From Adhaeribacter arboris (GTDB lineage: Bacteria > Bacteroidota > Bacteroidia > Cytophagales > Hymenobacteraceae), in NCBI RefSeq assembly GCF_003023845.1, contig NZ_PYFT01000001.1:1860001-1924000 (forward strand): 64,000 nucleotides of DNA, read 5' to 3'. A model generated the notes under the pieces. The model was not told where the DNA came from and did no database searches. It worked only from the letters and a program-made list of their open reading frames with translations. Below, one piece after another: positions 2,229-27,439 of this stretch (position 1 is the stretch's first letter; each line of letters starts with the position of its first letter). Both the position numbers and the translations under genes were made by a program.

Positions 2229-3883
2229 TGATTATTCTTCTCCACCCGGATAAAGCTTTCGCTGTCCACTAAAAACTGGGCGTTGGCGGCTATTACATCC
2301 TTGGCCGTTAATCCCGATACTATTTCTACCTGGCCGTTTGCTTGTTGCCCCACCTGAACCGCAACCGGTTTAAAAACATTATTTACTTTTTGGAAGGCTA
2401 CGGCCTGGGTACCCACATCTAACACTGCTTCCTTCGGTATCCAAAGAGTTACTCCGGTATTGTAAGTAGCTTTTCCGGTGATTAATTGACCAATTTGCGT
2501 TACTTTATTTTGAGCCGAAAGAGAAGCACGTACCTGGGCAAAATTTTCGCCGCCGTCATAAACCGGTGCTACCAAGCTCACCCGGGTGCGCACCGAATCG
2601 CCCGGTATTTGATTAAAATAAATGGATATAGGAGTCCCTGGGGTTAATTGATTAATTTGATTACTGGGTACCCTGAATTGCGCCCATACTTGCGAAGCAT
2701 CCACTACTTTTAACAGTGCCTGGCCGGTGGTTACGTACATTCCTTCCCGGACGGCAAAACCATTACTGGTTGTTAGATTTGTTGGGGTCGCTACCGCACT
2801 TGTATTAATACCCGTACTACCCGCATTACCCATCCCTGCCATATTATCTCCTCCGGCTGTGGGGGCCGAAGCAGTAGGAACGTTAGCCGGAGTTGCAGTA
2901 ATTGCCGGGTCGAGTACATAACCCGTGTAGGGGCTGTACACCGAAAAAACGTAGGACTCCCGACGATTCTGGGCTAAAGTATTTAATTGCGCGGCGGTGG
3001 CGCCTAAAAACTTTAATTTTTGGCGAGCCCCGTTTATTAGAGCCGTATTGGTAGGATCATTTTGTAACAGGTACAGCAATTCTTTTTGAGCCGTTACCAG
3101 TTCGGGACTGTATATATCAAACAACTTCTGCCCTTTACGTACCGGCTGGTAATTAAACTGCACGTACAATTTTTCAATTCGGCCCCCAAACCGGGCCGGA
3201 ATAATGTTTTGCTGCCGGGTGTCATACGTTATTATTCCGCTCAAAATAATTTCATTCTGAACTTGTTTTTGCATTGGTTGAATGGTTTTTAAATCTGCCA
3301 CCACGGCTTGGTTAACCGGTTGCAAAAGGTAATTCAGGTTGGAAGTTGTTGTAAGAGCAGGTGTATTTGCGGTTTGTTTGGCTACCAAGGTCATGCCGCA
3401 TACCGGACAACTGCCGGGTTGGTTACGTACAATTTGCGGGTGCATGGGGCAGGTATACGGCACTTCGGTGGCGGTTTCAGCAGCATGGTTAAGATTTTCG
3501 CGGCAACTGGTGATTGCAAAAGCTAGAAAAAGGAACAAGATGACTTGGATTTTGGTAATAAGTAGTTCTCCCCGACGCCTCTCAGAACGATTGGCTTTTG
3601 TTGGGAAAAGTATAAATGGCGCGAACGTCCTCGCTCGTATCTTGTCATCGTCCGTTCTCCGGCCGAGATAAGAATCCCTTACTTGCTTATAACAAAGTTT
3701 TACTCTTTCATCCGGCCAGAGGCCTACCAGATAATAAACACGAGCGAGGATGCTCGCGCCATTTAGAAGTACTCTGGTAAAAAGAAATCCTCTCCCAACC
3801 TCCGCCAAAAGAAGCCTTTTTAATAAATAGAAAGACAACATACCTAAATTATTTTTTGAGTTATTTTTCCAGTTCTTTCTCAT
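2225..3883 (-). CDS. cusB: Second CusB-like adaptor with HMBD; N-terminus extended by a MITE-like insertion
   Basis: The conserved part is a CusB-type adaptor. A lipoprotein signal covers about 109-127 (lipobox AITSC, Cys127), an HMBD covers 142-168 (CPMHPQ, CPVCGM), and lipoyl, barrel and membrane-proximal domains follow. The 552-residue frame opens at 3883, 23 bp inside the upstream cusC gene. Its first ~108 residues look nothing like an adaptor, and residues ~40-91 are encoded by the inverted-repeat element at 3613-3766. No ATG lies close to the signal peptide: the nearest candidates are an ATT preceded by GGGGAG (start near 3556) and a TTG inside the signal. Either initiation is at the distant ATG or a rare start codon is used. 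Between HMBD and C-terminus is a low-complexity Ala/Thr/Gly stretch inside the hairpin region. Confidence 0.82.
   Translation of the reverse strand: MRKNWKNNSKNNLGMLSFYLLKRLLLAEVGRGFLFTRVLLNGASILARVYYLVGLWPDERVKLCYKQVRDSYLGRRTDDDKIRARTFAPFILFPTKANRSERRRGELLITKIQVILFLFLAFAITSCRENLNHAAETATEVPYTCPMHPQIVRNQPGSCPVCGMTLVAKQTANTPALTTTSNLNYLLQPVNQAVVADLKTIQPMQKQVQNEIILSGIITYDTRQQNIIPARFGGRIEKLYVQFNYQPVRKGQKLFDIYSPELVTAQKELLYLLQNDPTNTALINGARQKLKFLGATAAQLNTLAQNRRESYVFSVYSPYTGYVLDPAITATPANVPTASAPTAGGDNMAGMGNAGSTGINTSAVATPTNLTTSNGFAVREGMYVTTGQALLKVVDASQVWAQFRVPSNQINQLTPGTPISIYFNQIPGDSVRTRVSLVAPVYDGGENFAQVRASLSAQNKVTQIGQLITGKATYNTGVTLWIPKEAVLDVGTQAVAFQKVNNVFKPVAVQVGQQANGQVEIVSGLTAKDVIAANAQFLVDSESFIRVEKNNQ
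3613..3766. mobile_element. MITE-like element with ~25-bp terminal inverted repeats
   Basis: The left arm 3614-3638 (AAATGGCGCGAACGTCCTCG...) and the right arm 3740-3764 are complementary at 23 of 25 positions, and the outermost base pairs extend to TAAATGG/CCATTTA. The flanks AAAGTA (3607-3612) and GAAGTA (3766-3771) could be a 5-6 bp target duplication. There is no ORF of its own. With the putative duplication it adds about 159 bp, a multiple of three, and leaves the reading frame of the second cusB open. A degenerate relative lies at about 27007-27178. Confidence 0.65.
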
Positions 3884-5129
3884 AATTCACCCCTATCAGA
3901 TAGAGTTGTTCCAGGTTATTCAGGTATTCCATTTGGGCCATGTTCAGCGCTTCCCAGGCATCCATTACTAAGAGTAATTGCCCGGTATTCTGCTCGTAGC
4001 TCAGCAAGGTAGTTTCGTAGTTTCGCCGGAGAGCCGGGATAATTTTTGTTTGATAGTTCTGGACCTGGGTTTTCTTTGATTTTAACTCCAAAGCCATATT
4101 GGCCGCCATGCCCTGGGCTTCTTTCAATAAGTTCTCCCGGCCTATTTGCATGGATTGAATTTCCAAATTCATGGCTTTAGAATTGGCTTTATACATCCGG
4201 TTCGACCAAGGCGCAAAAGGGATAGATACCATACCCATAGCGGTAAACACCTGCGGCATCATCCGGTCGCGGGGCAGCATGTTTTCGAATCGGATACTAA
4301 AATCCGGCAGGCGCTGGCTATTTTCGAGGAGTAGGTTGAGCCGCATGGATTCAATTTTTCTATCTAACTGCCGCACATCGCTGCGGGCTGAATTGAAATA
4401 AGAAGTATCCGTTTGAATAGCTACTTCTGGAACCTTTACCACGGTATCAATCTGAAAACGGGTATCTCTGGGCAGATTCATCAGAATATTTAATTGAATA
4501 TTCTTCATCCCGATTTCGCTTTCATTCATCAGCAGCATATTTTCCACTTCGTGCAACCGTGCTTCGGCCTTGTAGATACTGCCTAAAGTGCTTTGGTTGT
4601 AAGGGTACCGTACTTTGGCGAGTTTGAGCATAAACCCCATAATGCGCTGACTTTCCCGGAGAATCGATTTTTTTTTCTCTAAAACTACCCATTGGTAATA
4701 GGCAATTTTAGCCTGGGCCCGCAACTGATTGTACATAACTTCGTGACCTTCCTCCTCAACTGCCACTCGCGATTGCATATACTTTTCTTGGGCTTTCAGT
4801 TTAGCTGGATTAGGAATTTCCTGTTGGGCAGCGGTCATAAGCATGCCTTTATCCCGGTCTTCCATAATCCGCTGCCCCGGATAAGGATACATAAACACGC
4901 CGGCTCCTATCATAGGTGACATCCAGCTTTTGGCTCCTTCCGCGTACGTCTTGATGGCCTCGGTTTGTAAGTCATGTTCCTGCAACATCAGGTTATAATG
5001 ATGTATATAAAGCAGAACACTGTCGAGGTTCATTACCCGGTTCTGCGCCCGCAGAGGTAAAAACGCCACCAGAAAAAGCCCAATAGCCAAGCCATATTTA
5101 TACTTATTGTTTAACATCGTAAATTTCAA
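3861..5129 (-). CDS. cusC: TolC-family outer-membrane efflux channel (CusC-like)
   Basis: The 422-residue protein has a cleavable signal (hydrophobic core about residues 14-28, ending LRAQ) and two long alpha-helical repeats typical of outer-membrane efflux proteins (OEP). Motifs such as YNLMLQEHDLQTEA and the C-terminal NMAQMEYLNNLEQLYLIGVNYEKELEK-type helix are characteristic. It would form the trimeric outer-membrane exit duct for the Cus pump. The start overlaps the end of the cusA C-terminal half by 26 bp (5104-5129) and the end overlaps the next adaptor frame, so it is inside a tightly packed operon. An internal Met at residue 5 is an alternative start. Confidence 0.86.
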   Translation of the reverse strand: MKFTMLNNKYKYGLAIGLFLVAFLPLRAQNRVMNLDSVLLYIHHYNLMLQEHDLQTEAIKTYAEGAKSWMSPMIGAGVFMYPYPGQRIMEDRDKGMLMTAAQQEIPNPAKLKAQEKYMQSRVAVEEEGHEVMYNQLRAQAKIAYYQWVVLEKKKSILRESQRIMGFMLKLAKVRYPYNQSTLGSIYKAEARLHEVENMLLMNESEIGMKNIQLNILMNLPRDTRFQIDTVVKVPEVAIQTDTSYFNSARSDVRQLDRKIESMRLNLLLENSQRLPDFSIRFENMLPRDRMMPQVFTAMGMVSIPFAPWSNRMYKANSKAMNLEIQSMQIGRENLLKEAQGMAANMALELKSKKTQVQNYQTKIIPALRRNYETTLLSYEQNTGQLLLVMDAWEALNMAQMEYLNNLEQLYLIGVNYEKELEK

Positions 5130-7002
5130 TTTTACCGTGTTTTCTTAATTCGTACTCTTTCGTCATTTCAAAAACGACCGGCGTAACCAACAAAATATGG
5201 ATAGAAGAAGTAAAAACGCCGCCAATCAGGGGCAACACAATGGGCAGCATTACATCGGTACCTACCCCGGTAGCCCACAGTACCGGAATTAAACCAAACA
5301 AGGAAACCGAAACCGTCATGATTTTGGGCCGCAAGCGTTTGGCGGCTCCCCTAAAAACATATTCCCGGATGTCCTGCTTGGTGATGCTTTGACCAGAATT
5401 ACCTTTTTCGGCTACTAACTGGTTCATGGCTTCGTTGAGGTAAACCACCATCACCATGGCCGTTTCCACCGCCAAGCCAAACAAAGCAATAAACCCAACT
5501 GCCACCGCAACCGATAGATTTATACCGTAGAAGTACACGATAAATACGCCTCCTATCATGGCAAAGGGAATGGTAATTAAATTAAGTAAAGCTTCTTTTA
5601 ACGATCTAAAGGAGAAATACAGAATCAGGAAAATAATTACAAGCACCAGGGGAATAATAATTTTTAGAGTCTGATTGGCCCGGATTTGATTTTCCCATTG
5701 GCCGCTCCATTCCAGGTGGTAGCCCGTTGGGATACCGGTTACTTCCTGGTTTATTTTCTGAATTGCTTCCTGCACGGTGCTGCCTAAATCCCGCTCCCGT
5801 ACGTTGAAAAGCACCGCACCGCGTAACTGGGCATTTTCGGAGGCAATCATGGGCGGACCTTCCACAAACTGTACGTCTGCCACCGCCGATAAAGGTACGG
5901 AACCCAAAGAAACGGATTGAATGGGAATGCGGCGGATCCGGTCTAAACTGTTGCGGTACTCCTGGGCTAATCGTACGTTAATGGAAAAACGCTGGCGGCC
6001 TTCTACAGTATTTCCAATGGGTATGCCGCCTAAAGCAGATTCGACCACCGCATTCACATCATTCACCGACAATCCGTACCGGCCCAGTTCCTCCCGTTTC
6101 GGCTGAATTTCCAAATATTTACCGCCAGTAACCGGCTCGATGTACAAATCTTTAACTCCTGGAATTTCCTGAAGCGCGTTTCTTATTCTTTCTGATAGCA
6201 AAGCAATAGAATCGAGACTTTGCCCATACACTTTTACTCCTACATCGGTACGGATGCCGGTAGCCAGCATATTTATTCGGTTAATGATAGGCTGGGTCCA
6301 GCCGTTTATTACCCCTGGGATTTGTAGTTTTTGGTCAAGTTCGGCTATAATTTTAGCTTTGGTCATGCCTTCCCGCCATTCCGATTCGGGTTTCAGCTGA
6401 ATAATAGTTTCGATCATGCTGATGGGAGAATTGTCCGTTGCGGTACTCGCCCGGCCCGCTTTACCCAGAACCTGCGCTACTTCCGGCACTGATTTAATAA
6501 TCTTATCCTGCACCTGTAGTATGCGCTTAGCTTCGGAATTAGAAATATCCGGGAGCGTGATGGGCATAAACAAAATGGAGCTTTCATCTAAGGGTGGCAT
6601 AAACTCCGAACCTAAACGCAGCATCATCGGAATGGCAATAAATAAAGCGATAATATTGATGCCAATGGTAGTTTTACGCCATTCCAAACACCAGCGTAAA
6701 ATAGGTCCGTACACCCGCTCCAAACCCCGGTTAATGGGATTACTGCTCTCCGGCTTAAACTTTCCTTTTAGAAACAGAGAAAGCAGCACCGGCGTAACCG
6801 TTATGGCTACGAAGGCATCCACAATTAATATAAAGGTCTTGGTCCAGGCCAAGGGACTAAATAATCTTCCCTCCTGCCCCGTCAGTAAAAACACCGGCAG
6901 AAAAGAAGTAATAATGATAACGGTACTCCAAAACACGCTGGGCCCCACTTGCTTCGATGCTTTTTCGATGATAGCTAATCTTTCGGAATCGGATAGGTTC
7001 AT
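5104..7002 (-). CDS. cusA: RND metal-efflux pump CusA, C-terminal half (TM5-TM12)
   Basis: This 632-residue ORF corresponds to the second part of a CusA-type heavy-metal RND pump. It begins in the cytoplasmic loop before TM5 (SKQVGPSVFWSTV), continues through TM5-TM6 (VIIITSFLPVFLL, ...AITVTPVLLSLFL), the amphipathic Ialpha helix, TM7, the second porter domain and TM8-TM12 (ending in GTDVMLPIVLPLIGG). Together with the 421-residue N-terminal half at 7665-8930 it makes about 1053 residues, the normal CusA length, with no obvious conserved part missing. Its ATG (7002) is preceded by the right end of the inserted element and only a weak ribosome-binding site (AAAAAG). Whether it is translated and assembles with the other half is unknown; both new termini would be cytoplasmic. 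Confidence 0.86.
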   Translation of the reverse strand: MNLSDSERLAIIEKASKQVGPSVFWSTVIIITSFLPVFLLTGQEGRLFSPLAWTKTFILIVDAFVAITVTPVLLSLFLKGKFKPESSNPINRGLERVYGPILRWCLEWRKTTIGINIIALFIAIPMMLRLGSEFMPPLDESSILFMPITLPDISNSEAKRILQVQDKIIKSVPEVAQVLGKAGRASTATDNSPISMIETIIQLKPESEWREGMTKAKIIAELDQKLQIPGVINGWTQPIINRINMLATGIRTDVGVKVYGQSLDSIALLSERIRNALQEIPGVKDLYIEPVTGGKYLEIQPKREELGRYGLSVNDVNAVVESALGGIPIGNTVEGRQRFSINVRLAQEYRNSLDRIRRIPIQSVSLGSVPLSAVADVQFVEGPPMIASENAQLRGAVLFNVRERDLGSTVQEAIQKINQEVTGIPTGYHLEWSGQWENQIRANQTLKIIIPLVLVIIFLILYFSFRSLKEALLNLITIPFAMIGGVFIVYFYGINLSVAVAVGFIALFGLAVETAMVMVVYLNEAMNQLVAEKGNSGQSITKQDIREYVFRGAAKRLRPKIMTVSVSLFGLIPVLWATGVGTDVMLPIVLPLIGGVFTSSIHILLVTPVVFEMTKEYELRKHGKIEIYDVKQ

Positions 7003-7043
7003 CTTTTTAAATTTTGAATGAGGAAATAAGGGAATGTGAGAAT

Positions 7044-7209
7044 GAGTGAATGTTGAATGAGTGATTGAGTGAATAAGTGAATTTTGAATAATGAAATTAA
7101 AAATATAGAATATGGATCATAGTCTTTTTTAAAATAGATTCATTGATTTATTTGATTATAACTACTATTCATTCACACATTCACTCAATCACTCATTCAA
7201 CATTCACTC
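7044..7209. repeat. 31-bp perfect inverted repeat inside the cusA element
   Basis: GAGTGAATGTTGAATGAGTG... at 7044-7074 is the exact reverse complement of 7179-7209 (31 of 31 bp), with 104 bp between the arms. Both consist of short TGAGTGAA/TGAATGAGT units. On the minus-strand transcript this forms a long hairpin just after the four-helix-bundle ORF. The arm at 7044-7074 can alternatively pair with the copy at 7622-7666. Confidence 0.9.
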
Positions 7210-7218
7210 GTCCATTTA

Positions 7219-7596
7219 TTACTTGCTAGTATTTTTTCTGGCTTTCGCCATTACGGATAAGATTTCAGTTGCTTCTTTCATAAGATTTGCCACTTTAACT
7301 TCCGGTATAATGTTGGCTTCGGTAAGTAATTCCAGCCAAAACAAGGTTTCATCAGCTTCTTCAATCACAATGCTACATTTAGCGTAGAATTCGGCGGAGG
7401 AACGGGCACGACAAGCGGCACGGTAATTTGCGGCGACCGATGTGGCTGAACGTAAAAGTTGTCGTTTTAAGATGCTTGCCTCTTCCGTTTTAGGTAGGCT
7501 TTGTGCCAAACGAATTACATCCAAAGCTAAATTTTTAGTCTTCTGACGGAAGCGTTCCACAAATTGTTCTTTAGATAATCTCCCAGATTCTTCCAT
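7219..7596 (-). CDS. Four-helix-bundle protein of the 23S rRNA intervening-sequence family
   Basis: The 125-residue protein is almost entirely helical. It carries family features: an early R...A..V..LAQSLPKTEE helix, the segment QLLRSATSVAANYRAACRARS, and SIVIEEADETLFWLELL. This matches the S23/IVP family (PF05635, TIGR02436), related to the accessory protein Avd of diversity-generating retroelements. Members are basic pentameric bundles thought to bind nucleic acid; their precise role is unsettled. The gene lies on the same strand as cusA inside the element that splits it. It is flanked by TGAGTGAA-rich repeats on both sides. No reverse transcriptase or variable repeat is nearby, so it is not part of a complete retroelement here. 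Confidence 0.88.
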   Translation of the reverse strand: MEESGRLSKEQFVERFRQKTKNLALDVIRLAQSLPKTEEASILKRQLLRSATSVAANYRAACRARSSAEFYAKCSIVIEEADETLFWLELLTEANIIPEVKVANLMKEATEILSVMAKARKNTSK

Positions 7597-7621
7597 TGTT
7601 CTAATTGTAATTATTTCATTT

Positions 7622-7666
7622 AATTATTCAGAATTCGCTCATTCACTCATTCAAAACTCACTCATT
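7622..7666. repeat. Third TGAGTGAA-type repeat block
   Basis: On the minus strand AATGAGTGAGTTTTGAATGA... immediately follows the last sense codons of the cusA N-half and contains its TAA stop. It aligns with few mismatches to the reverse complement of the block at the other end of the element (7041-7100), which makes the two ends inverted repeats, and is a direct copy of 7179-7209. Confidence 0.75.
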
Positions 7667-8930
7667 AACTATTCTGCGCATCTGCTAAATGCCGGTAAGC
7701 ATTCTCGACCATTACAATGGCATCATCTACAATTACCCCAATGGCCAAGGCTATACCAGTAAGGGACATGATGTTAGAGGAAATATCAAAGGCATTTAAA
7801 AGAATAAACCCGATAGCAACGGAGAGCGGCAGTTGAATAATAATAATGAGGGCACTGCGCCAGTGAAAGAGAAAAATGAAAACTAAAACCGAGGCTACTA
7901 CCATCTCATCGATTAAGGTGGCTTTTACCGAATCGACCGATTCGGTAATTAAACCGCTGCGGTCATACACAATATTAAATTTTACGCCTTTGGGTAAACC
8001 CACCGCTACTTCTTTCATTTTGGCCTTCACGTTGGCAATTACTTCGGCGGCATTTTCCCCGTAGCGCATTACCACTATTCCCCCCACAGCTTCGCCTTCT
8101 CCGTTCAGGTCAAAAATTCCTAAGCGCGATTCCCCGGTCATTTGCACGGTAGCAACGTCCTTTACCCGTACCGGAATGGTATTCGAAGTTACAACCGGAA
8201 TATTTTCGATTTGCTCCGTGGATTGCAGGTAACCGGTAGTTTTAATGATATACCCGATAGCACTCCTTTCGAACTTGCGGCCGCCGCTCTCGTTATTGTT
8301 TGCCCGCACGGCGCCAATTACTTGAGGTACCGATAAATTGAAATAAGTTAGTTTATTCGGGTCTAAGGTGATCTGGTATTGTTTCTGGAAGCCGCCGAAC
8401 GATGCAATTTCGCTTACCCCCGCAACATTTTGCAGCGAAAATTTCACGTACCAATCCTGGATAGCCCGCTGTTCGCCTAAGTCCAGGCCGGGTGCATCTA
8501 AGGTATACCACAAGATATGCCCTACTCCGGTTCCATCCGGCCCTAAGGTAGGAACGGCGCCTTCCGGCAATAAGCGGTTCGCGTAGTTCAGGCGTTCCAG
8601 TACTCTTTCCCGGGCCCAATAAACATCGGTTTTATCTTCAAAAATGATGTAAATAAAACTCATCCCAAACATAGATACGCCGCGCACATACTTTACCAGG
8701 GGCATGCCCTGCAAATTCGTAACCAAGGGATAGGTTACCTGGTCTTCCATAATCTGCGGGCTGCGGCCCATCCATTCGGTAAATACAATTACCTGGTTTT
8801 CAGATAAATCCGGAATAGCATCTACTTTGTTAACGGAAATGGAGTATACGCCCCAACCAAATAATCCGGCCGCCAGCAGCAAAACCACCAGCCGGTTCCG
8901 GAGAGAAAAAGAAATTAAGTTGCCAATCAT
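7665..8930 (-). CDS. cusA: RND metal-efflux pump CusA, N-terminal half (TM1-TM4)
   Basis: The 421-residue ORF starts as a normal CusA/CzcA family pump: TM1 at about 13-32, then VDAIPDLSENQVIVFTEW and the first periplasmic porter domain with NYANRLLPEGA and LGPDGTG. TM2-TM4 follow. Near the end is GVIVDDAIVMVENAYRHL (about 398-415), containing the TM4 acidic residues used in proton relay. It stops at TAA right after HLADAQNS, in the cytoplasmic loop that joins TM4 to TM5. The remaining pump sequence resumes 665 bp downstream at 7002. It follows the HMBD lipoprotein gene by 52 bp in the efflux operon. The half could be one chain of a split pump or a broken gene. Confidence 0.87.
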   Translation of the reverse strand: MIGNLISFSLRNRLVVLLLAAGLFGWGVYSISVNKVDAIPDLSENQVIVFTEWMGRSPQIMEDQVTYPLVTNLQGMPLVKYVRGVSMFGMSFIYIIFEDKTDVYWARERVLERLNYANRLLPEGAVPTLGPDGTGVGHILWYTLDAPGLDLGEQRAIQDWYVKFSLQNVAGVSEIASFGGFQKQYQITLDPNKLTYFNLSVPQVIGAVRANNNESGGRKFERSAIGYIIKTTGYLQSTEQIENIPVVTSNTIPVRVKDVATVQMTGESRLGIFDLNGEGEAVGGIVVMRYGENAAEVIANVKAKMKEVAVGLPKGVKFNIVYDRSGLITESVDSVKATLIDEMVVASVLVFIFLFHWRSALIIIIQLPLSVAIGFILLNAFDISSNIMSLTGIALAIGVIVDDAIVMVENAYRHLADAQNS

Positions 8931-26903: not shown

Positions 26904-27006
26904 TAAGTTTTTCACGGCGAACAGCCCACAACCAGTTAGCAAGAATAATCGCCTAACCTCCCTTATATAGTTCTCCTACTCTCTCTTTAAAAATTGAATT
27001 TCTTCT

Positions 27007-27178
27007 ACCGCGAGCGTCTTCGCTTGTGGTTCATCATGTAGCAGGCCTCCGGCTGGGCTACCCGATATACTTTCCTTAAAAGCAATCAGTTCAAATTCCT
27101 AGCAGCCAGTTGAAAATATTGAATAATTCCGGGAAAACCGGACAATAGGCATTACGGATGAAGACGCTCTGAATGGAT
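27007..27178. repeat. Degenerate second copy of the MITE-like element
   Basis: CGCGAGCGTCTTCGCTTGTG and the following GTAGCAGGCCTCCGGCTGGG resemble the right part of the element at 3613-3766 read on the minus strand (CGCGAGCATCCTCGCTCGTG, then GGTAGGCCTCTGGCCGG). GAAGACGCTC near 27163-27172 is the exact complement of GAGCGTCTTC at the left, so a decayed opposite arm is present. No gene is disrupted. Together with the operator below it accounts for most of the 26904-27439 gap. Confidence 0.5.
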
Positions 27179-27280
27179 ACTTTGCAAATAGCTAATTAGC
27201 AATTGGTTATACTGCTATTCGATATTCGATACTCAAAATTCACCATTCCCATTCTTTAGGAATCAGCAACTAAGCAGTAC

Positions 27281-27340
27281 TACCCATAAAAATGAGCAGT
27301 GCAGCTTATTTCCTTAGGGTAGTTCGTGGTAGTACCTTTG
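27281..27340 (+). promoter_or_regulatory. Operator plus promoter, site 1 of 3
   Basis: TACCCAT (27281-27287), 4 bp, ATGAGCA (27292-27298) form an inverted pair of heptamers. About 43 bp from the operator centre lies the -7 element TACCTTTG (27333-27340), with a TTTC in the -33 position (TATTTC, 27307-27312). The same arrangement with nearly the same spacing occurs at 28777-28835 and 51890-51832. The heptamer fits the TACYYMT pattern known for NarL-type regulators. Confidence 0.7.
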
Positions 27341-27439
27341 TCATGTTCTTAAAACAAAGCACTTACCGAACATAGAAAACAACTTAATCATCCAAATAAC
27401 TTAGAAAACAATTCATCCATCCTTAACTCTCAACTGAAA

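Follow-up and report, generated by a model that had tools for sequence, protein, structure and literature searches.

Why should the gene of an efflux pump carry, between its two halves, a gene for a protein of the kind known from ribosomal RNA? The question is raised by a stretch of 64,000 nucleotides of Adhaeribacter arboris (Bacteroidota; NCBI RefSeq assembly GCF_003023845.1, contig NZ_PYFT01000001.1, positions 1,860,001 to 1,924,000), in the following called the window, in which cusA consists of two open reading frames (ORFs) separated by a gene for a four-helix-bundle protein of the IVP (S23) family that is set between complementary ends. A first-pass annotation of this DNA had proposed that an element resembling the intervening sequences (IVS) of 23S rRNA had entered cusA and split it. 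Comparison of sequences indicates that the split is old and that the element occupies a pre-existing junction of an ancestrally two-ORF cusA. We propose that it is an IVP junction element, consisting of an IVP/S23 gene between inverted arrays of 7- to 8-nt repeats at a junction of co-directional ORFs, in which the IVP would recognise the arms and the whole would be a slowly moving unit, a reading that we hold to be probable, if only by a little. The architecture recurs at 44 junction classes of one bacterial family and across the phylum, the subtype of the IVP matches the period and the motif of the repeats, and copies of the arms without an IVP are found elsewhere in the genome.

All parts of the locus are read on the minus strand, and the ORFs lie where the first-pass annotation had placed them. 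The N-terminal half of CusA (8930..7665, 421 amino acids, stop codon TAA at 7667-7665), recognised by profile and structure coverage and by its relatives, is followed by the IVP ORF (7596..7219, 125 amino acids) and by the C-terminal half (7002..5104, 632 amino acids), recognised by profile and structure coverage. The distance given earlier between the CusA ORFs, 665 bp, is right if the stop codon of the N-terminal half is counted and is 662 nt otherwise. The assignment to the IVP family was also right: with 70 bits the protein exceeds the PF05635 cut-off of 33.8, and with 89.1 the TIGR02436 cut-off of 24, and its single-sequence AlphaFold2 model has four helices (predicted local distance difference test, pLDDT, 82 in the best model and 56-71 in the other four). 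Avd, a protein of diversity-generating retroelements, forms a pentameric ring. A Foldseek search with the window IVP returned 2rld (E 2.9e-5), 2gsc (3.3e-3) and then Avd (4dwl, 8ub7); the entries 2rld and 2gsc each list five chains, A-E. Subtypes of IVP are named here after the residues that they have at one conserved site (NIAEG, NVEEA, NYRAA), and the window IVP is of the NYRAA subtype.

The left arm (7621..7667), composed of TGAGTGA-type units spaced 7-8 nt, begins at the stop codon of the N-terminal half; with a best period of 8 and 3 strictly spaced cores it is less regular than the arms described below. The right arm (7009..7090), complementary to it, ends 6 nt before the start codon of the C-terminal half. 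These inverted TGAGTGAA-type arms are real, the RNA fold of 7680-7000 on the minus strand having a z of -10.3 against 20 shuffles. Only the right end proved more complex than had been described, as an additional copy of the arm in direct orientation, seen from the sequence, the RNA fold and arm-DNA matches, lies downstream of the IVP ORF (7166..7211). A loop (7091..7165; sequence and RNA fold) separates this copy from the right arm (7090-7009), with which it pairs, so that the IVP gene is followed by an arm-loop-arm unit that has no IVP of its own. When 1263 offsets of the window were scanned, an inverted pair scoring at least 30 at IVP-like spacing was found at this element alone; its downstream gap has the top repeat-array score among the 36 intergenic gaps of the window and the top inverted-repeat score among the 14 gaps listed. 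On the sense strand between the arms the IVP is the sole ORF of at least 60 amino acids, and the element thus lacks the transposase of a full-length DNA transposon.

An insertion into an intact cusA was suggested by the completeness of both halves and by the position of the IVP gene, in sense orientation, exactly at the loop that the first-pass annotation had labelled TM4-TM5. No conserved segment of CusA is missing: together the two ORFs cover the model of the CusA/CzcA family (TIGR00914, positions 1-426 and 432-1038), as expected of a split CusA, and on the solved CusA structure 3k07 they span residues 12-430 and 438-1046, leaving 431-437 uncovered. Against the insertion stand the relatives. 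The split-type loci with both halves readable number 18, namely the window and 17 from relatives (identity at least 58%; L023, which begins at a contig end, is outside this set). All 18 have two ORFs, and 16 of them have no IVP at the junction; a split of cusA by the element is therefore not supported, and we regard the insertion as extremely improbable. The comparison with relatives, which had been named as a check, thus upheld the two-ORF arrangement as a shared one, largely as foreseen for the case that the proposal was wrong; the complementary ends, however, are not a matter of chance.

How far back the split goes can be judged from the search with the C-terminal half, which found a homologue in 39/39 genomes (the window's own and 38 relatives), many of the homologues being distant pumps of the resistance-nodulation-division (RND) type. 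The near homologues (58-95% identity) have open frames of 633-683 amino acids, and the unsplit ones are distant (11 loci, L026-L036, 33-36% identity, open frames of 1043-1529 amino acids). The split is common to other families of the order (L020, L022) and to homologues of 58-59% identity (L024, L025). At the 16 IVP-less junctions 7-203 nt separate the aligned ends, and at six loci (L008, L009, L010, L013, L014 and L015) the CusA ORFs overlap at a ATGGATAA junction, a sequence feature that suggests translational coupling of a two-chain RND pump.

An IVP at the cusA junction is also present in genome G009, where the IVP is 75.6% identical and the element supplies the stop codon of the upstream gene, in G014, as judged by coordinates, and in four Pontibacter loci (L288, L293, L294, L297) among the best 80 of at least 512 window-type loci. 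The nearest relative of the window in this comparison, G003 (95%), has no IVP and a longer tail of the N-terminal half, so that the insertion may have taken the place of part of the junction, or G003 may have lost the element. Short relics resembling the 3' arm were seen by eye in the IVP-less junctions L017 and L019 and perhaps in L011 and L012. The junctions L017 and L019 are filled by other palindromic intergenic repeats of the GTCATTTCGAC...GGAGAAATCT type, which are not identical between the two.

The cusA junction is one of many. The window genome has six PF05635 genes, all six between two co-directional ORFs, and the complementarity of the flanks exceeds the 95th percentile of mismatched pairs in five of them and equals it in the sixth (L003). 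PF05635 matches were found in 7 of the 8 genomes of the genus, in 90 of 100 of the family and in 157 of the 198 Bacteroidota genomes sampled. We analysed 138 loci of the family, mostly the best-scoring among the matches listed and no random sample, with many orthologous junctions that fall into 44 classes and with ORF neighbours picked mechanically. Their own flank pairs have a median inverted score of 34 versus 17 for mismatched pairs; 110 of the 138 exceed the 95th percentile of the latter, and 60 exceed the 99th. Flank complementarity was found in 15/29 loci of a first phylum set, which left out L187 with its empty flank, and in an enlarged phylum set the medians are 26 versus 17, with 52/89 above the 95th percentile. 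Both neighbours are co-directional with the IVP in 116/138 and both opposite in 9/138 family loci, as compared with 27/50 and 5/50 for the genes of the window as control; in the phylum set the IVP is in sense orientation in 65/90. Counted by site, 30 of the 44 junction classes have the same, 6 the opposite and 8 a mixed direction.

The arms are tandem units of 7 nt (or 8 nt), placed after the upstream stop codon and before the start codon that follows, and they differ from element to element. The median gap is 44 nt before the IVP and 40 nt after it. Periods and cores were counted at 125 of 168 loci, those with both neighbours co-directional and a gap of 20-130 nt, and at 53 of 90 loci of the phylum set (30 of these 90 are also among the 168). 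A period of 7, 14 or 8 fits best in 121 of the 125 upstream arms and in 50/53 of the phylum set; among the 125 the mean excess over shuffles is 9.0 at period 7 and 6.9 at period 14 and does not exceed 0.8 elsewhere. Five cores are the mode (77/125 versus 2/125 after shuffling), and the phylum set gave 26/53 versus 0/53 shuffled and 2/51 for the upstream regions of window ORFs. In most upstream arms G exceeds C (102/125 and 51/53). Often the upstream arm starts within the stop codon of the gene before it, which is TAG in 62/116 family cases and 23/53 phylum cases versus 3/52 window ORFs; by reasoning, a TAG core repeated every 7 nt would place stops in all frames. A single fixed terminal inverted repeat was considered and rejected, the arms differing between elements and, at the thiolase junction discussed below, between species.

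The period goes with the subtype of the IVP. With period 14 counted as 7, the period is 8 in 21/27 NYRAA loci and 7 in 21/21 NVEEA loci, many of the latter being one junction class; NIAEG has period 7 in 84/104 and period 8 in 15. Outside these three subtypes there are 27 loci of no named subtype (16 with period 7, 9 with period 8, 2 with another) and 15 of small subtypes. For period 8 in NYRAA versus the rest p is ~1e-10, uncorrected for relatedness. The consensus of the unit differs likewise: A-G-W-N-N-T-W in the 7-nt class, (G/A)A(A/G)TT in NVEEA and (G/A)A-N-TGAAT in NYRAA. By eye, a related TGA-bearing 8-nt motif recurs in window-type loci of Pontibacter, Hymenobacter, Pedobacter, Larkinella and Bacteroidales.

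In a FastTree phylogeny of 137 IVPs, 8 of the 20 junction classes with several members are exact clades, 3 more would be so without a single tip, 4 are intermingled with up to 7 others and 5 are scattered; many elements thus descend at their site, and some sites received an element repeatedly. The IVPs of the thiolase junction form one clade but for one tip, and there the arms have turned over between species and complementarity was kept: own arm pairs score 31 versus 16 when swapped within the site. The permease-permease junction (own 42, swapped 14) was dropped as a second case of turnover at one element, because its IVPs are scattered over the tree and may stem from several insertions. Close IVPs at different sites share an arm motif in L145, L146, L052, L131 and L159, and among 29 representatives arm similarity correlates weakly with IVP similarity (Mantel rho 0.17, p 0.006). 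The median ratio of nonsynonymous to synonymous substitution rates (dN/dS) is 0.06 in 46 pairs of same-site IVPs, which indicates that the protein is under strong purifying selection.

DNA of the right end of the window element matches 12 other places in the genome; the matches number 30, since a place may have several and the element itself has some. Eight of the 12 are gene junctions that hold a full arm-loop-arm unit of this motif but no IVP, and at 7 of the 8 the flanking ORFs are co-directional; the other four are partial. The TTAGTTG arm of another IVP matches 10 further places, of which 5 are inverted repeat-array units. In miniature inverted-repeat transposable elements (MITEs) and other non-autonomous elements, short copies devoid of an ORF share the ends of an ORF-bearing copy. 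IVP-less copies sharing the ends of the IVP-bearing element are such copies, 8/12 with the window motif and 5/10 with TTAGTTG; unlike MITEs, the element contains no transposase and its arm sequences are not fixed, turning over and yet staying complementary. Among 8 genomes of the genus the window-type IVP occurs in this one only, which has at least 23 arm matches (own arms included), the other seven having at least 0, 0, 0, 1, 0, 0 and 0; the counts are lower bounds, as the best 8 candidates per genome were scored. Over 100 genomes, arm DNA and window-type IVP are associated with a genus-stratified p of 5e-4 at an identity threshold of 57%, 0.0015 at 45% and 0.002 at 63%, all uncorrected.

Junctions can also be compared with and without their filling. 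At the fmt-folA junction, which in the window genome holds one IVP-less unit, other species of the genus have other repeat fillings, relics or unrelated sequence. Across several species of the genus the arrays found there are of TGAGTGA, AGATTGTT, TTAGTTG or AACAGTG (L388-L395, gene names given by eye). Of 30 loci of the thiolase/acyl-CoA-dehydrogenase junction, 11 are filled (426-477 nt), 4 are tight (9-27 nt), 11 are longer without a matching IVP and 4 have the second gene not found in the locus. One of the 11 longer junctions (L218, genome G021) has, in the place of the IVP element of its relatives, an unrelated ORF resembling a GIY-YIG nuclease (named by eye) in a long inverted repeat of its own (TTTGTCATCCTGAAAGGATCTCGGTGGCAA), with relics of IVP-type arms on either side.

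Whether the arms are paired as DNA or as RNA can be asked of their mismatches, since selection on a stem in the mRNA should make G.U outnumber A.C. Among 114 elements (those of 168 with an arm score of at least 26) there are 100 G.U and 89 A.C (p 0.47; per-site sums 38 versus 44), and in the phylum set 40 and 54 (44 elements, partly of the same loci), a result that speaks against selection for a stem in the mRNA. Nor is there a significant excess of repeats in the upstream arm: it is the more repetitive of the two in 67 elements, the downstream arm is so in 49, and 42 show no difference (p 0.11). Both results are better explained by inverted ends at the DNA level than by an RNA leader or stem. 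From these sequence counts the complementarity looks to be one of DNA rather than of an mRNA stem, and RNA binding is compatible with it. A stem in the sense RNA with tolerance of wobble pairs, as the force behind the complementarity, was accordingly rejected.

These counts bear directly on the idea that the element is an mRNA version of the 23S rRNA IVS, in which the arms would pair in the polycistronic transcript and RNase III would cut the stem, releasing the IVP message and separating the flanking cistrons. RNase III excision is documented for 23S IVSs, for example that of Coxiella (PMC4990558; this paper, PMC10053308, PMC4692102, PMC4679880, PMC5524665 and PMC10910872 are cited here for excerpts of their text). 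The very stable stem predicted around the IVP ORF, the sense orientation at most junctions (116/138 and 65/90) and membership of the IVP family would all suit such processing; the near parity of G.U and A.C and the lack of any Rfam match at gathering level, rRNA included, in the 12 loci tested, the window element (L006) among them, do not, and pairing alone would not require motif and period to go with the IVP subtype. We consider it unlikely. The tryptophan RNA-binding attenuation protein (TRAP) is a ring protein that binds a tandem array of short sites, and its fold differs from that of IVP. By analogy an IVP ring might bind about five repeats in its own mRNA leader, one per subunit, and so control translation or read-through of the junction, with the downstream arm as antagonist. 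The interval from the stop codon to the start of the IVP (median 44 nt) is taken up by the upstream array, five cores are the mode in the 7-nt class, the homologues 2rld and 2gsc have five chains per entry, and G exceeds C in the upstream arm, all of which fits; the regularity of the downstream arm and the lack of a five-core peak in the window's subtype do not, and the IVP-less arm units would need another reason. Such autoregulation, in which binding by the IVP is putative, seems to us rather unlikely as the explanation of the element, and it is compatible with the junction element proposed here. RNA processing and TRAP-like control might both act in addition to what that proposal describes.

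Retromobility of the kind used by diversity-generating retroelements, with a reverse transcriptase of the same genome, was also rejected: the genome has 0 matches to PF00078 (RVT_1), while the same search was positive in 3 of 14 control genomes.

Beyond the match of protein subtype and repeat array, the inverted ends, the placement at junctions and the IVP-less copies, we infer that the IVP binds the arms of its own element and that the element moves. The IVP, putatively a ring, would bind the repeats at the ends of the element, possibly with a single subunit on each repeat of the 7-nt class. Both the control of the element and its rare spread with the help of host enzymes would depend on that binding. 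Arms and IVP would thus propagate as a slowly moving DNA-level element, and the IVP-less copies would be, or would have been, served in trans by an IVP.

Several observations weigh against this proposal. The motif shared within an IVP subtype could reflect ancestry and not recognition, and template switching could keep the arms complementary without a function. Own arm pairs scored barely higher than swapped ones at 3 of the 8 classes with at least 5 loci (33/29, 23/19, 25/19), certain pairs of closely similar IVPs at different sites differ in their arms (e.g. L128-L003 and L088-L064), and over all pairs arm similarity tracks IVP similarity weakly (rho 0.06). The peak at five cores is a property of the 7-nt class; the 36 arms of the window's subtype have anywhere from 2 to 9, the left arm of the window has 3 strict cores, and in cyanobacteria the arrays have as many as 18-20. 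Arm DNA and the window-type IVP are less strongly associated when two own-arm matches per IVP genome are subtracted (p 0.002 at 57%, 0.02 at 45%, 0.008 at 63%) and still less when four are (0.03, 0.14 and 0.05), and arm matches occur in 26 of 50 genomes that have no window-type IVP. Two of the six IVP genes of the window genome (L002, L005) have an internal stop. Co-directionality is weaker in the window's subtype, both neighbours having the same direction in 41 and the opposite in 13 of the 80 window-type loci, the best 80 of at least 512, a set biased to this subtype because the window IVP alone was the query. Finally, no catalytic domain was found in the element.

On another reading the arms would be ordinary heptamer slippage arrays that collect in junctions, with the IVP as a passenger and template switching keeping them complementary. 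Heptameric intergenic repeats are known, GGGNATC in Xanthomonas and Nostoc (PMC4692102) and TAACTGA in Beggiatoaceae, Cyanobacteria and some Bacteroidetes (PMC4679880), with no link to IVP genes in the excerpts, and the arm matches in 26/50 genomes lacking a window-type IVP point the same way. A passenger, however, would not explain that period and motif go with the IVP subtype, that arms stand on both sides of the IVP in 110/138 loci, or that the upstream regions of window ORFs are without such a period (five cores in 2/51). We regard it as very unlikely.

How does the junction element compare with what has been described? With the 23S rRNA IVS (PMC4990558) it shares an IVP-family ORF inside complementary ends, a size of a few hundred nt and the strand of the host transcript. 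It differs in lying between protein-coding ORFs, here the halves of CusA, with no insertion in rRNA, and in having arms that are tandem 7-8-nt arrays without wobble bias and IVP-less copies at other junctions. The resemblance of IVP and Avd is in print (PMC10053308), and the fold is the same four-helix one (4dwl, 8ub7); unlike in Avd retroelements, no reverse transcriptase was found in the window genome. Avd is not mentioned in PMC3863775. The heptameric intergenic repeats have 7-nt tandem units, mostly in gene junctions, as here, and are reported without a link to an IVP gene: the excerpts of PMC4692102 do not contain 'S23' or 'four helix', and those of PMC4679880 do not contain '23S' and have 'helix' twice. 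Xanthomonas campestris, whose genome is known for GGGAATC heptamers (PMC4692102), is also the source of the solved four-helix-bundle protein XCC0516 (2gsc). In Flavobacterium columnare a four-helix-bundle gene lies between those of guanylate kinase and nicotinate-nucleotide adenylyltransferase (PMC5524665), and the IVP domain is named in a figure legend of PMC10910872. In the open-licence literature, with most subscription journals outside this scope, we found no paper that links IVP genes to heptad arms or operon junctions and no function for S23/IVP outside rRNA and retroelements. IVS excision, the likeness of IVP and Avd, and heptamer repeats are each known, and in the literature so covered we found no paper that brings them together.

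S23/IVP proteins are very common (157/198 Bacteroidota genomes), and a partner in the form of a repeat array makes their function testable. Conversely, the IVP offers a cause for heptameric intergenic repeats, for which PMC4679880 and PMC4692102 propose roles with no such protein partner in their excerpts. Operon junctions would house a slow and compact element that can easily be mistaken for ordinary intergenic sequence. More tentatively, as a possibility that we still doubt, IVP/S23 proteins may be dedicated readers of 7-8-nt heptad arrays across bacteria, ring proteins that together with matching repeat arms form a new class of DNA-level junction elements without transposase or reverse transcriptase and with IVP-less derivatives, of which the heptanucleotide repeats of cyanobacteria and xanthomonads would be members or relics.

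Outside the chromosomes of Bacteroidota, one query for a NIAEG-type IVP in phage records found none, and 10 IVP loci on plasmids were read (8 cyanobacterial, 1 of Chloroflexota, 1 of Bernardetia), selected among the 16 and 30 plasmid records that two queries hit. In most of them the gene adjoins 7-nt arrays, and inverted pairs score 33-63 in 7 of the 10, the pair of L399 lying below the best mismatched pair. The arms are weak or different in L402, L404 and L405, and in L400 and L402 the IVP and its neighbours lie on opposite strands.

Two features of the window remain to be mentioned. The gene following the C-terminal half of CusA on the same strand encodes a CusC-like outer-membrane efflux protein (5129..3861, PF02321), and an intergenic gap within 26904-27439 contains a short 7-nt array (TATTCGATATTCGATACTC) with a weak inverted partner (score 20).

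On five of the plasmids (L396, L397, L399, L401, L403), from cyanobacteria and a Chloroflexota, the IVP and its heptamer arrays lie inside defence operons, the contexts being drmD/MmeI (DISARM) once, DUF1156/Swt1 twice and CRISPR cas6/cas4 twice.

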